Below are positions 31,633-35,319 of a stretch of 41,488 nucleotides of DNA, piece by piece; within the stretch, counting starts at the first letter, position 1, and each line of letters starts with the position of its first letter. Source of the stretch: an uncultured Gammaproteobacteria bacterium (GTDB lineage: Bacteria; Pseudomonadota; Gammaproteobacteria; Nitrosococcales; Methylophagaceae); NCBI GenBank assembly GCA_905479985.1, contig CAJQOM010000027.1:1-41488 (forward strand), read 5' to 3'. The position numbers and the translations under genes were made by a program. The notes beneath the pieces are model-generated. The model had not been told where the DNA came from. It worked only from the letters and a program-made list of their open reading frames with translations, and searched no databases.

Positions 31633-31893
31633 TTAGTGATCACCCGGATTGGTTTTGTCACACATGGCATGCAGTTTTTTTGCTAAAGCCTGTCGATCCG
31701 TTGCATCCATTTCTTGTGGTTTTGCCACGGTGACGGTATCAATTGTTTGTCGAAACTGCTGCACGTAATTGCGGCAACAACGGCAAATAACAAGATGCAT
31801 GAACAACGCGATACGTTTAGAAAGGGGCAAACCGCCTTCTACACCAGCGATATAGTTACTTGTTTCTTCAGTGACATCTTTACATTGCAGCAT
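31633..31893 (-). CDS. Putative zinc-finger anti-sigma factor
   Basis: An 86-residue cytoplasmic protein with a zinc-binding anti-sigma motif H-x3-C-x2-C at HLVICRCC (about residues 33-40) and a preceding helix with cysteine near residue 4 (LQCKDVTEETSNYIAG). There is no transmembrane helix. Proteins of this kind hold an ECF sigma factor inactive until a metal or redox signal acts on the zinc site. It begins one base after the stop of the sigma factor gene, so the pair is translated together. Its neighbours suggest a copper or oxidant response, which is inference. Confidence 0.8.
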   Translation of the reverse strand: MLQCKDVTEETSNYIAGVEGGLPLSKRIALFMHLVICRCCRNYVQQFRQTIDTVTVAKPQEMDATDRQALAKKLHAMCDKTNPGDH

Positions 31894-32511
31894 TTAATTA
31901 TCCTGATAGTGTTCAATGGCATCATGTAGTGCGACACGAGCACGGTGTAATAATACTCTCGCGTTAGACGAAGAGATGGCTAAAATGTTACAAATTTCGT
32001 TAATTTTATAACCTTCCATGTCCACCATTGTCAGCGCAGCACGTTGCATAGCAGGTAAAGATTGGAAAGCCTGTTCAATGACTTTTTGTAATTGTGTATT
32101 GGCAAGAAGAGCTTCAGGCGTTGCTGTTTCCCACGGTAGGATATTATCGACACGGTGTCCTGTGTGATCGAACTTGTCACTAGATACCGCTTCCCAACCA
32201 TCATCTAATGAACTGTAACGGTTTTCTCTACGAACCCGGCTTTTAGCCCCATTACTGACAATTTGAACTAACCATGTTTTAAGAGACGAACGACCTTCAA
32301 ATTTTGGCAAGGCTTTGATGGTAGAAACCCAAGCATCCTGCACAACTTCGTCAGCAATACTGTCTCCAACGATAGCTCTGGCTACAGACAGCATCAAATT
32401 GTGATATTCTGCGACCACATGCTCAAAAGCAGCGGGATCGCCTTCGATAAGGTTCTTGATTAACGGTTTTTCATCGTTATTATTTTCAGACTTGAAAAGT
32501 TTTGTCATCAT
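31894..32511 (-). CDS. ECF-type RNA polymerase sigma factor
   Basis: A 205-residue group IV sigma factor. Region 2 is at about residues 25-95 (FEHVVAEYHNLMLSVARAIVGDSIADEVVQDAWVSTIKALPKFEGRSSLKTWLVQIVSN), and region 4 at about 140-195 (LQKVIEQAFQSLPAMQRAALTMVDMEGYKINEICNILAISSSNARVLLHRAR). The linker of about 45 residues is longer than average. It forms an operon with the anti-sigma gene and is divergent from the EGKCG-repeat gene, its likely target. Two adjacent ATG codons are possible starts. Confidence 0.92.
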   Translation of the reverse strand: MMTKLFKSENNNDEKPLIKNLIEGDPAAFEHVVAEYHNLMLSVARAIVGDSIADEVVQDAWVSTIKALPKFEGRSSLKTWLVQIVSNGAKSRVRRENRYSSLDDGWEAVSSDKFDHTGHRVDNILPWETATPEALLANTQLQKVIEQAFQSLPAMQRAALTMVDMEGYKINEICNILAISSSNARVLLHRARVALHDAIEHYQDN

Positions 32512-32609
32512 GTCTGTAACATTTTGCTTTTATGTATGTCTACGTTAACAAGCTTGGTCAAATTGTGACGGGTTGTTTTAATTTTTTACAATAATACAGG
32601 AAAATTATT
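32512..32609. promoter_or_regulatory. Divergent promoter region, sigma factor and hvfA-like gene
   Basis: This 98-base gap must hold promoters for both directions. On the plus strand TTGGTC (32554-32559), a 17-base spacer and TTTAAT (32577-32582) form a weak sigma-70-like pair; GTAAC at 32516-32520 resembles the -35 core reported for some copper/metal-responsive ECF promoters but lacks a clear -10 at the expected distance. AGGA at 32598-32601 is the ribosome binding site of the hvfA-like gene. I cannot decide which sigma factor acts here. Confidence 0.35.
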
Positions 32610-33029
32610 ATGTCGATATCTTCTAAGAAAAAAACAATAGCACTAGCAGCTGGCGCAGCATTGACTGCAGGCCTAGCACTAACGCCAACACTTGCAAGTG
32701 CAGAAACCAGCCCATTCGCAGCGGCAGAATTATCAAACGGTTATATGCAATTAGCAGGTCATGAAGCCAAAGAAGCAAAATGTGGCGAAGGCAAATGCGG
32801 CGAAGGTAAATGTGGTGGTAAGGCAGTAGGAACACAATCAGATATTGATAAAAAAACTGCTGAATACCACGAGCAAATGAAAGCACAAGAAGCAAAATGC
32901 GGCGAAGGCAAATGCGGTAATGCGCCTGCAAAAGCAGAAGAAGCAAAATGTGGTGAAGGTAAATGTGGTAACGCACCAGCAAAAGCTGAAGAAGCAAAAT
33001 GTGGTGAAGGTAAATGCGGCGCTAAATAA
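32610..33029 (+). CDS. HvfA-like EGKCG-repeat protein, putative copper-binding RiPP precursor
   Basis: A 139-residue secreted protein: a signal peptide (positive SSKKK, then a hydrophobic stretch ending LASA), a leader-like region with SPFAAAELSNGYMQLA, then a low-complexity core. The core has nine cysteines, all in E-A/G-K-C-G context (five EGKCG, four EAKCG). HvfA-type precursors have Cys in EGKCG motifs converted by a DUF692 enzyme (HvfB) with a DUF2063 partner (HvfC) into copper-binding thiooxazole-type groups. Here those partners are missing from the locus. The DoxX-type gene downstream and the sigma/anti-sigma pair upstream match the usual context. Without modification it might still act as a simple thiol metal sponge. 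Confidence 0.85.
   Translation: MSISSKKKTIALAAGAALTAGLALTPTLASAETSPFAAAELSNGYMQLAGHEAKEAKCGEGKCGEGKCGGKAVGTQSDIDKKTAEYHEQMKAQEAKCGEGKCGNAPAKAEEAKCGEGKCGNAPAKAEEAKCGEGKCGAK
32889..33026 (+). repeat. 51-bp tandem repeat inside the hvfA-like gene
   Basis: Two full 51-base units (32889-32939 and 32940-32990) and a partial 36-base third unit encode EAKCGEGKCGNAPAKAE. They differ mainly at synonymous third positions (for example TGC/TGT, GGC/GGT). A related Cys cluster lies upstream at about 32772-32822. The in-frame unit length means gain or loss of units would add or remove two cysteines each. Confidence 0.92.
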
Positions 33030-33053: not shown

Positions 33054-33077
33054 AAAGGGGCTCTACGGAGCCCTTTT
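33054..33077 (+). terminator. Rho-independent terminator after the hvfA-like gene
   Basis: GGGCTC (33058-33063), loop TACG, GAGCCC (33068-33073), extended by A-T and G-T pairs and followed by a run of six T. It lies before the DoxX-type gene, so it may attenuate readthrough and give the precursor transcript in excess over the downstream genes. Confidence 0.85.
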
Positions 33078-33153
33078 TTACAATGAGAGTAAGTATTAAT
33101 AGGCCACTTAATTAAAAGAGGGCATGATCAATACTGATTTTTAGGAGATGGCA

Positions 33154-33741
33154 ATGTCGATATGTAGCATGATGGGCGCAATGCAACGTGCATTGAATAC
33201 AACCAGAGCCATCGATTTTTTGGCCCCATTAGCAATGCGTTTTTATCTCGCGCCAGTGATGTGGATGGCTGCGAATACGAAATGGAATCCGCTAGACTCA
33301 AATAGTTCTTTAGATTCAACGATTGAATGGCTTGGTAACTCAGACTGGGGCCTTGGTTTACCTTATCCAGAATTATTAGGCCATTTAGCGTGGGGAGCAG
33401 AGTATTTCGGTGCGATTTTCCTCGTACTCGGTTTTGCTGTGCGTTGGGTATCTATACCACTGATGGTGACAATGGCTGTTGCGGCTATCACTGTACATTG
33501 GGATAAAGGGTGGCTAGCAGTGGCAGAACCAAATGCCCAATTAGAAGCAGGTCGTTCATTACTCAAAGAGCACGGTAATTATGATTGGCTAACTGAGACA
33601 GGTAACTTCGTTATTTTAAATAACGGCATAGAGTTTGCGACAACCTACTTCATCATGCTGTTAGCCTTATTCTTTACCGGTGCGGGTCGTTATTTCAGCA
33701 TTGATTATTGGTTAGCAAAAAAATACATGGCTTCAGAATAG
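33154..33741 (+). CDS. DoxX-family membrane protein, HvfX-like
   Basis: A 195-residue membrane protein with about four hydrophobic segments: residues 20-40 (FLAPLAMRFYLAPVMWMAA), about 75-95 (GAEYFGAIFLVLGFAVRW), about 97-115 and near 165-185 (YFIMLLALFFTGAGRYFSIDYWL). The start of the first helix and the GAGRYFSID block fit the DoxX family, whose HvfX branch is encoded with HvfA-type precursors. Its precise role is unsettled; redox or export functions have been suggested. I take the ATG at 33154, six bases after AGGAG; an ATG at 33148 touches that site. msrP follows after nine bases. Confidence 0.8.
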   Translation: MSICSMMGAMQRALNTTRAIDFLAPLAMRFYLAPVMWMAANTKWNPLDSNSSLDSTIEWLGNSDWGLGLPYPELLGHLAWGAEYFGAIFLVLGFAVRWVSIPLMVTMAVAAITVHWDKGWLAVAEPNAQLEAGRSLLKEHGNYDWLTETGNFVILNNGIEFATTYFIMLLALFFTGAGRYFSIDYWLAKKYMASE

Positions 33742-33750
33742 GACAAGGCA

Positions 33751-34710
33751 ATGCACATTAACAAAAATAAGTTAGGCTTATTAAAAGATCATGATGTGAC
33801 CGATGAAAAGGTGTATCTGAATCGACGCGAATTCATTAATAAGGCGGCATTGCTGGCATCAGCAGCGGCATTACCGTCAATAGCGTTCGCGGAAAGCGAA
33901 GCACCAGCGCCAAGTTACACTGATTTGAAAAAGAGCCCTTTTTCAGCTTCTGAAGATTTGACAACATATCAATCTATTACGACGTATAACAATTTTTACG
34001 AGTTTGGTGTTAACAAAGAAGACCCGGCAAAGAATGCGACCGACTTCCCTGATAAGTCAGAGCCGTGGCGTATTGTCATTGATGGTGAATGTGATAATCC
34101 CGGTGAATATGATCTTGATGATTTGATGAAGCCATTTACATTGGAAGAACGCATTTATCGCCTGCGCTGTGTAGAAGGCTGGTCAATGGTCATTCCATGG
34201 CATGGTTTTTCGTTAGCAGACTTATTAAAGCAAGCCAAACCGAATTCAAAAGCCAAATATGTTGAATTCAGTACACTTTATAATCCACAACAAATGCCGG
34301 GCCAACAAAGTAGTGTACTGCAATGGCCTTATATTGAAGGTTTGAGAATAGATGAAGCAATGAACCCTCTTTCCTTTATGGCAACAGGTTTGTATGGCAA
34401 TGATTTGTTAGGTCAAAATGGCGCACCACTACGCCTCGTCACACCGTGGAAATATGGCTTCAAAAGTATCAAGTCGATTACGCAAATTCGCTTCGTTGAA
34501 AAACAGCCAGTGTCCTCTTGGATGATTGCAGGGCCTGCAGAATATGGTTTCTATTCAAATGTAAATCCAGATGTTGCCCATCCGCGATGGAGTCAGGCAC
34601 GTGAGCGACGTATTGGTGAGTTCTTGAAACGCAAAACGGAAATGTTTAATGGTTATCAAGAACAAGTAGCACACCTCTACACTGGCATGGATTTGAAAAA
34701 AGATTTTTAA
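33751..34710 (+). CDS. msrP: Periplasmic methionine sulfoxide reductase, catalytic subunit
   Basis: A 319-residue molybdoenzyme (YedY) that reduces methionine sulfoxide in periplasmic proteins. It carries a twin-arginine signal (NRREFINKAALLASAAA, Arg25-Arg26, cleavage after IAFA), the molybdenum-ligand Cys140 in YRLRCVEGW, and GAPLRLVTPWKYGFKSIK near residue 230. It is secreted folded by the Tat system. msrQ follows after 15 bases. Its position behind a putative copper-RiPP gene pair suggests shared control in response to copper or hypochlorous oxidants, which is inference. Confidence 0.95.
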   Translation: MHINKNKLGLLKDHDVTDEKVYLNRREFINKAALLASAAALPSIAFAESEAPAPSYTDLKKSPFSASEDLTTYQSITTYNNFYEFGVNKEDPAKNATDFPDKSEPWRIVIDGECDNPGEYDLDDLMKPFTLEERIYRLRCVEGWSMVIPWHGFSLADLLKQAKPNSKAKYVEFSTLYNPQQMPGQQSSVLQWPYIEGLRIDEAMNPLSFMATGLYGNDLLGQNGAPLRLVTPWKYGFKSIKSITQIRFVEKQPVSSWMIAGPAEYGFYSNVNPDVAHPRWSQARERRIGEFLKRKTEMFNGYQEQVAHLYTGMDLKKDF

Positions 34711-34725: not shown

Positions 34726-35319
34726 ATGTTTCGTCAATTATTTAAAACCAGCCTCTTTATTATCAGTTTGCTGCCAGCAATAATCTTAATTTATGGCGCG
34801 CTAAATAATCAACTGGGGGCGAACCCCATTGAAGTGCTCACCCGTGACACAGGGGAGTGGGCATTACGATTTTTATTAATCACATTGGCTGTTAGCCCAC
34901 TAAGATTATTATTCGGCTGGCATTTTTTAGCCGATGTGAGGCGGTTATTAGGCCTGTATAGTTTTTTCTATGCCGCCATTCATATGCTGTTATATGTCTG
35001 GTTAGATCAGTTCTTTAATTTGACCGATATCATCAAAGATATTATTGAACGTCCTTTCATCACAGTTGGTTTTATCAATTTTCTAGCTTTAATCCTTTTA
35101 GCTGCAACGTCAAATGACGCTATGATCAAACGCCTAGGCGCTGAACGATGGAACCGCCTGCATAGCCTTGTCTACTACATTGGTATAGGGGCTGTTATTC
35201 ATTTTTTCATGTTGGTCAAAAAGGATGTTACAGAACCGGTTATTTACATTATAATTTTGGTCGTATTATTGGGTATTCGGCTCTATCGCTACAGTCGTCG
35301 AAGCTTAATATCAGCATGA
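34726..35319 (+). CDS. msrQ: MsrQ heme-binding membrane subunit
   Basis: A 197-residue inner-membrane protein (YedZ), a b-type cytochrome of the ferric reductase-like transmembrane family that passes electrons from the quinone pool to MsrP. About five or six hydrophobic segments are visible, with heme-ligand-type histidines in LFYAAIHMLLYVWLD-like context (residues near 85) and LHSLVYYIGIGAVIHFFMLVK (near 145-165). WHFLADVRRLLGLYSFFYA and NRLHSLVYY are conserved in the family. It ends the transcription unit. Confidence 0.94.
   Translation: MFRQLFKTSLFIISLLPAIILIYGALNNQLGANPIEVLTRDTGEWALRFLLITLAVSPLRLLFGWHFLADVRRLLGLYSFFYAAIHMLLYVWLDQFFNLTDIIKDIIERPFITVGFINFLALILLAATSNDAMIKRLGAERWNRLHSLVYYIGIGAVIHFFMLVKKDVTEPVIYIIILVVLLGIRLYRYSRRSLISA

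Follow-up and report, generated by a model that had tools for sequence, protein, structure and literature searches.

The hvfA locus and its predicted product

The window analyzed here, a stretch of 41,488 nt, corresponds to contig C27 of an uncultured Methylophagaceae genome that spans 2.2 Mb in 46 contigs and is 99.85% complete. Its genes of interest lie in the order DUF1244, anti-σ and ECF σ-factor (both on the reverse strand), hvfA, hvfX, msrP, msrQ, and aceE. The hvfA-type precursor gene, assigned from its ORF and from NCBIfam profiles, occupies positions 32610–33029 of the forward strand and encodes 139 amino acids. Divergent from it, the ECF σ-factor (31894–32511, reverse) scores over cut-off with both Sigma70_r2 (57.1 bits) and Sigma70_r4_2 (43.4 bits), and the adjoining putative zinc anti-σ (ZAS) factor (31633–31893, reverse) carries an Hx3Cx2C motif, recognized by eye, and reaches 42.2 bits against NF052368, for which the cut-off is 50. 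Downstream of hvfA, on the forward strand, are the DoxX-type gene hvfX (33148–33741; NF050144, 214.4 bits, cut-off 80), msrP, encoding a periplasmic methionine sulfoxide reductase (33751–34710; NF003767, 460.4 bits, cut-off 207), and msrQ, encoding the haem membrane partner of MsrP (34726–35319; NF003831, 177.5 bits, cut-off 130). These assignments agree with the initial annotation, which had placed a divergent ECF σ/anti-σ pair upstream of the precursor gene and an HvfX-like gene downstream of it. A hairpin with a T-run follows directly after hvfA (33058–33079, forward); such a hairpin lies 33–54 nt past hvfA in 27 of the 36 loci handled, with none in seven and one elsewhere in two. A separate hairpin scan reports the 33058–33079 palindrome on the reverse strand only, and the element is possibly a terminator or attenuator ahead of hvfX. 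A scan for σ70-type promoters gave 9 sites, against 10.6 expected, and hence no usable signal.

The precursor looks secreted, with a Sec signal recognized by eye (an n-region, a hydrophobic stretch, and an end reading ASA/E), and, as initially annotated, all nine of its cysteines fall within E[A/G]KCG motifs, four of them EAKCG and five EGKCG. The motifs do not strictly alternate, the first cluster being EAKCG-EGKCG-EGKCG. The earlier suggestion that alternation affects which cysteines are processed appears weak, given that FonA, with SGEAKCGEGKCGEK, acquires 5-thiooxazoles according to the accessible text of its description (PMC12668002). Upstream of the cysteine repeats is a pre-core region, SPF...ELSNGYMQLA, and sequence comparison finds the pre-core pattern.PF...LSSGYM in precursors of both the split arrangement described below and the adjacent one. 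In the C-terminal part EAKCGEGKCGNAPAKAE is repeated with a period of 17 residues, the repeat length given for the Buf_EGKCG/oxazolin group in the available part of PMC12452194. A spacer, VGTQSDIDKKTAEYHEQMKAQ, interrupts the repeats at window positions 32826–32888, and similar spacers occur, among the precursors compared, only in L115 and L213. The protein scores 61.6 bits against the KCGExKCG repeat domain NF050137 (cut-off 19.5) and 60.3 bits against the narrower HvfA equivalog NF050188, under its cut-off of 95, and is therefore filed as HvfA-type rather than as an NF050188 equivalog. That cut-off was reached by none of six HvfA proteins encoded beside hvfB (37 to 75.4 bits), a comparison that left out a seventh, L191. 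The window's HvfA is the sole HvfA-like match in its genome, the runner-up having an E value of 0.09 and an internal stop. By analogy with related systems, its product is probably a secreted, copper-binding peptide. Two relatives also carry a second HvfA-like paralogue (L107, 8374–8793, reverse; L111, 7975–8280, reverse) that keeps the signal and pre-core region and has lost most or all of its KCG cysteines.

A candidate enzyme pair at a second locus

Profile searches of the whole genome found neither hvfB nor hvfC in the window or on C27, as the initial annotation had reported for the window. PF05114 (DUF692) and PF09836 (DUF2063) each returned two matches, on C16 and C23 only. On C23, HvfB (NF003818, 453.8 bits, cut-off 360) and HvfC (NF050145, 307.6 bits, cut-off 142) are encoded as a pair close to edd-eda and a rhodanese gene; the hvfB reading frame is open, and the closest solved structures are 3BWW for HvfB (E 3.7e-77) and 3DEE for HvfC (E 6.6e-12). 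With this pair present, loss of the enzymes was rejected as an explanation. No precursor was found beside it among ten small ORFs with at least three cysteines in the surrounding 9.5 kb, judged by eye for a signal peptide and repeated cysteine motifs. C16, in contrast, carries a bufferin locus that looks intact, with two BufA2 precursors that score 95.1 and 77.6 bits (cut-off 60), BufB (395.4 bits, cut-off 310), and a DUF2063 partner. The genome search thus leaves a precursor gene that has no modification enzymes encoded next to it and an HvfBC gene pair with no precursor found next to it. The initial annotation had named as a counter-case a second complete locus that processes its own precursor; the C16 bufferin locus fits that description and the C23 locus does not.

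Residues linked to substrate selectivity distinguish the two enzymes. The accessible text of PMC12668002 gives Arg15, Arg16, and Phe250 of FonB as markers of enzymes acting on Lys-Cys (EGKCG) substrates, whereas in enzymes for Cys-Lys (BufA2-type) substrates the second Arg is lost and Asp replaces Phe. HvfB of C23 has Arg16-Arg17 and Asp251-Phe252, the EGKCG-type signature, and BufB of C16 has Arg-Thr and Asp-Asp, the BufA2-type signature. Across 72 aligned MNIO rows (46 family HvfB, 11 other HvfB, 12 BufB, and 3 further proteins), the second Arg is retained in 45 of 46 family HvfB (the remaining row has a gap) and 10 of 11 other HvfB, as opposed to T or K in all 12 BufB; the Phe position is F in 46/46 family and 10/11 other HvfB and D in 12/12 BufB. 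Both positions are S in the three further MNIOs. Asn175, Asp242, and His244 are described as essential in HvfB of Haemophilus influenzae (PMC13419390, in the part available), and their likely counterparts, picked by motif rather than by the published numbering, are conserved across all family HvfB rows. By this substrate signature, the C23 HvfBC pair fits the window's HvfA.

These residues bear on the idea that BufB and BufC of C16 modify HvfA and that hvfBC of C23 is a relic. The intact appearance of the C16 locus, together with a copy of the promoter motif described below before its first bufA2, would agree with such a role. However, at the positions occupied by Arg and Phe in EGKCG-type enzymes BufB carries Thr and Asp; the C23 hvfB gene is open with its active-site residues conserved; and a BufB-like match occurs in only 12 of 57 family genomes (scoring 258.7 to 276.5 bits when searched with HvfB), as against 51 with HvfB over cut-off, six further family genomes showing a weaker BufB-like match of 181 to 189 bits. 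We regard this idea as highly improbable.

Separation of hvfA and hvfBC across the family

HvfA, HvfB, and HvfX were searched for in 95 relatives, 57 of which form the family considered here, Methylophaga and its relatives. The loci fetched from this family comprise 40 around hvfA (L107–L146) and 46 around hvfB (L006, L147–L185, and L201–L206); with the window, L212, and L213 included, they cover 43 of the 48 family genomes with hvfA and 46 of the 51 with HvfB. All 40 hvfA loci lack hvfB, and all 46 hvfB loci lack hvfA. Yet the genes co-occur: HvfB scores over cut-off in 51 of 57 family genomes, and hvfA is present in 46 of those 51, recognized by profile in 44 and from its ORF in G012 and G018. 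In three with HvfB and no hvfA found (G002, G010, and G019), the hvfA site is a contig end; G022 (84% complete) and G026 (69%) likewise have HvfB and no hvfA found. Conversely, hvfA is present and a DUF692 match lacking in G048 (85% complete) and G056 (55%), and G029 (100% complete) has neither hvfA nor HvfB by these profiles. Gene order is largely conserved on both sides, as DUF1244, anti-σ and ECF σ, hvfA-hvfX-msrP-msrQ, and aceE around hvfA, and as hvfC-hvfB with eda around hvfB, a family eda lying in 43 of 46 stretches. An ECF relative is present in 39 of the 40 hvfA loci, the exception, L109, being a contig end.

A genome in 46 contigs could separate neighboring genes artificially, and the contig ends at the hvfA site of G002, G010, and G019 are what such an artefact of fragmented assembly would produce. 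However, hvfA and hvfB share one contig in eight relatives (G034, G035, G037, G038, G039, G042, G044, and G047), where record coordinates put them 49 kb to 2.5 Mb apart, and the order of genes on both flanks is much alike across the family. The same-contig relatives led us to reject this explanation, to which we give only the slightest chance. Judged from the sequences, the split in this family is conserved and old. A tree of 93 MNIO rows accounts for it with one to two changes, a single origin being recovered in 66% of 200 bootstrap replicates; its base lacks resolution, long branches are flagged, and L164, L171, and rows under score or length limits (for example, L278) were omitted, and on these data the tree neither proves nor excludes a single origin.

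Two relatives with small genomes, G018 and G012, carry the hvfA ORFs at L212 8508–8804 (reverse) and L213 7042–7380 (reverse). G018 keeps a hvfA with three cysteines, its motif, msrPQ, and hvfBC, and has no ECF or hvfX match; G012 keeps a hvfA with six cysteines and hvfBC, its ECF gene and hvfX being broken. Because both retain hvfA and hvfBC without a working ECF factor, the regulator is not indispensable.

A promoter motif shared by the two loci

A predicted ECF promoter, TGTAAC-N17-GTC, is located at 32515–32540 of the forward strand and starts 95 nt before the hvfA start codon. When 250 nt upstream of each ORF and 45 nt inside it were scanned, the motif was found for 39 of the 44 family hvfA ORFs and for 43 of the 46 hvfB ORFs, counts that, like those of co-occurrence, come from related rows and are not independent events. 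It also precedes 33 of 41 anti-σ genes and 1 of 40 hvfX genes, and it was absent from the scanned regions of aceE (36), edd (42), eda (43), msrP (38), msrQ (38), hvfC (45), the rhodanese gene (33), DUF1244 (39), oppDF (35), and ecf (40). The reversed pattern, used as a control, matched 2 of 46 hvfB ORFs and no other class, and 200 rounds of first-order resampled sequences gave means of 0.015 (hvfA) and 0.045 (hvfB) matches. No matches were obtained at spacings of 15, 16, or 18–21 across the ten classes scanned; hvfA had nine matches at a spacing of 13 and one at 14, and the hvfB motif occurs at a spacing of 17 only. The five hvfA ORFs without the motif are the decayed paralogues of L107 and L111, the second tandem copy of L113, L137, and L146, and the three such hvfB ORFs are L164 (a contig start), L179, and L181. 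Of the 12 bufferin loci (L005 and L217–L227), eight also carry the motif ahead of their first bufA2. TGTAAC-N17-GTC resembles known ECF promoters, and we infer that the adjoining ECF factor reads it.

In the window's own genome the motif with an A after TGTAAC has 9 sites, compared with 4 for the reversed control, so that single sites elsewhere are weak evidence. One such site stands 55 nt before the gene for a secreted-looking protein of 247 amino acids with EGCSSCPPAD (L325, on C41), and another stands 85 nt before that for a 504-amino-acid protein (L312, on C13) and recurs in the relative G003 (L313). In relatives some sites precede other genes, and three (L320–L322) precede none.

Taken together, the C23 pair, the shared motif, and the residue signature make a second, co-regulated locus the most likely source of the modifying enzymes. 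This supports the proposal of the initial annotation that they work in trans from another locus, and tells against its other proposal, that the product is an unmodified thiol metal buffer. Were HvfA to remain unmodified in the periplasm, HvfBC of C23 would act on something else; the distance between hvfA and hvfBC would suit such an arrangement, as would the occurrence of HvfA without any DUF692 match in G198, G397, G048, and G056. Against it, hvfA and hvfBC are found together in the 46 of 51 HvfB-bearing family genomes noted above, and the two share the promoter motif; HvfB of C23 bears the EGKCG-type signature; and no other precursor was found beside hvfBC, the bufferins having a separate enzyme pair of their own. 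We therefore judge an unmodified buffer to be distinctly improbable.

A predicted promoter within the σ-factor gene

A further copy of the motif lies inside the σ gene itself, within the region 4 codons and upstream of the anti-σ gene (31967–31992, reverse). The corresponding Cys-Asn pair of region 4 is present in 39 ECF genes, one more, L137, being without it. Its Cys is encoded by TGT in 39/39, compared with 57% of Cys codons elsewhere in these genes (n = 14), and its Asn by AAC in 37/39, compared with 30% elsewhere. The third base of the Ser/Ala codon is G in 37/39, TCG and GCG each making up 9% of the codons for their amino acid elsewhere. This synonymous-codon constraint suggests an embedded promoter that would provide negative feedback by raising the anti-σ factor. 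We lean toward the broader reading, in which a copy of the promoter that the σ-factor recognizes, embedded in its DNA-binding region 4 codons, would drive the anti-σ gene, and the same sequence would unite as many as three separate copper-peptide loci (hvfA-hvfX-msrPQ, hvfBC, and bufA2-bufBC, unlinked to one another) in a single regulon.

A probable split pathway and its predicted regulation

The evidence makes it very probable that this genome encodes a split oxazolin/captophorin pathway, in which the precursor comes from the window and HvfBC from the unlinked, co-regulated C23 locus. Under this model, the window would supply HvfA, and the C23 locus near edd-eda would supply HvfB, a DUF692 iron oxidase, and the DUF2063 protein HvfC. 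HvfC would recognize HvfA through the shared pre-core region, and HvfB, with HvfC, would convert the E[A/G]KCG cysteines to copper-binding 5-thiooxazoles before export. The Sec pathway would then carry the product to the periplasm, where it would hold copper while MsrPQ repaired oxidized methionines. Stress would release the ECF factor from its anti-σ partner, and the freed factor would raise HvfA, HvfBC, and the anti-σ factor itself via TGTAAC-N17-GTC; the C16 bufferin locus is probably under the same ECF factor. The hairpin after hvfA could maintain a surplus of hvfA over hvfX-msrPQ. The functional steps of this model are transferred from characterized relatives as the accessible parts of PMC13419390 and PMC12668002 describe them.

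The closest parallels, as far as the available portions of the respective papers go, share the components rather than their arrangement. The oxazolin system hvfABCX of nontypeable H. influenzae (PMC13419390) likewise has an EGKCG-repeat precursor, HvfB, HvfC, and HvfX, but it is a single operon, whereas here hvfBC is unlinked and msrPQ follows hvfX. In the same organism, the regulon of the ECF factor RpoE2 takes in a four-gene doxX cluster and the periplasmic methionine sulfoxide reductase MsrAB (PMC7907618), and the families of that cluster, COG3220, DUF2063, and DoxX, identify it as the hvf operon. The RpoE2 regulon resembles the one predicted here in combining an ECF σ-factor and a small anti-σ factor with a doxX (hvf) cluster and a periplasmic reductase. 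In contrast to it (PMC7907618), MsrPQ is here encoded in line with hvfA-hvfX, and the control is predicted from the DNA motif. The captophorin system FonABC, which makes fontiphorin (PMC12668002), has the same EAKCGEGKCG core and the same Arg-Arg and Asp-Phe enzyme signature, but forms a gene cluster where the present genes are split. BufA2-type bufferins are also MNIO-modified, secreted, metal-binding peptides, encoded on C16 with their own enzymes, and differ from the HvfA system in their cysteine motifs and enzyme signature. Stand-alone Buf_EGKCG/oxazolin precursors, and oxidored_molyb or ferric-reductase neighbors of EGKCG genes, have already been published (PMC12452194); in the accessible text of that survey the stand-alone precursors are not paired with distant co-regulated enzyme genes, as they are here.

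In the literature searched, which took in few subscription papers, we found no report of the conserved split in this family, the shared motif, or the probable promoter within the σ gene. Peptide surveys based on gene neighborhood would score the family's HvfA and HvfBC as orphans, and the conserved split combined with the shared motif offers a way to pair them. Together they also define a regulon that can be tested under copper or oxidant stress in a family with named Methylophaga strains among its members, and they place MsrPQ in line with this pathway outside pathogens.

Arrangements outside the family

Beyond the family, seven of 11 hvfB loci (L186–L195 and L200) have an adjacent hvfA (L187–L193), and the same test found none in L186, L194, L195, or L200. 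One further locus, L196 (G069), has a hvfA-like ORF and hvfX and no hvfB on an 8-kb contig. A census of the class covered 369 genomes, 98 of them with HvfA, and took the place of HvfA for 69, including 67 non-family genomes. Among the matches listed, counted by hand, hvfB lies within 5 kb of hvfA in 52 of these 67; again among the matches listed, it lies at 8–13 kb in three, about 920 kb away in one (G345), and on another contig in seven, three of which have a gene at a contig end and one of which, G224, shows a fragment of a DUF692 gene next to hvfA. HvfB over cut-off is absent, among the matches listed, from four of the 67: G198 and G397 (75% complete) have no DUF692 match, and G200 and G406 have other DUF692 matches. 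These scattered cases indicate that splits also occur sporadically outside the family. G198, from another family and 99% complete, encodes HvfA on its contigs C11 and C13. Enzyme-less HvfA may thus exist elsewhere, and G198 would be a better candidate for it than the window gene.

A scan with HvfX found the arrangement of the window in Methylophaga spp., in M. aminisulfidivorans MP, where it is locus L253, and in MAGs labeled 'Piscirickettsiaceae' or 'Methylophagaceae', records that overlap in part with the family genome set. Among the matches listed, 26 of 80 HvfX loci have the family gene order, defined as hvfX with msrPQ-aceE or with DUF1244-anti-ECF, and none of the 26 has hvfB in the flank. 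The other 54 loci listed, some of them short contigs, were classed by phmmer and motif as 29 with hvfA and hvfB, 7 with hvfB only, 1 with hvfA only, and 17 with neither. Four Cycloclasticus loci (L271, L289, L290, and L294) have hvfX, with hvfA and hvfB absent from the fetched flank. One of the seven hvfB-only loci, L295, has a hvfA-like ORF recognized by eye, giving hvfA-hvfB-hvfC-hvfX-msrP-msrQ in a row. The initial annotation had msrPQ occupying the place usually held by hvfBC, which proved incorrect, in that contiguous operons put hvfBC between hvfA and hvfX; L295 has the gene order of the window with hvfBC still in place.
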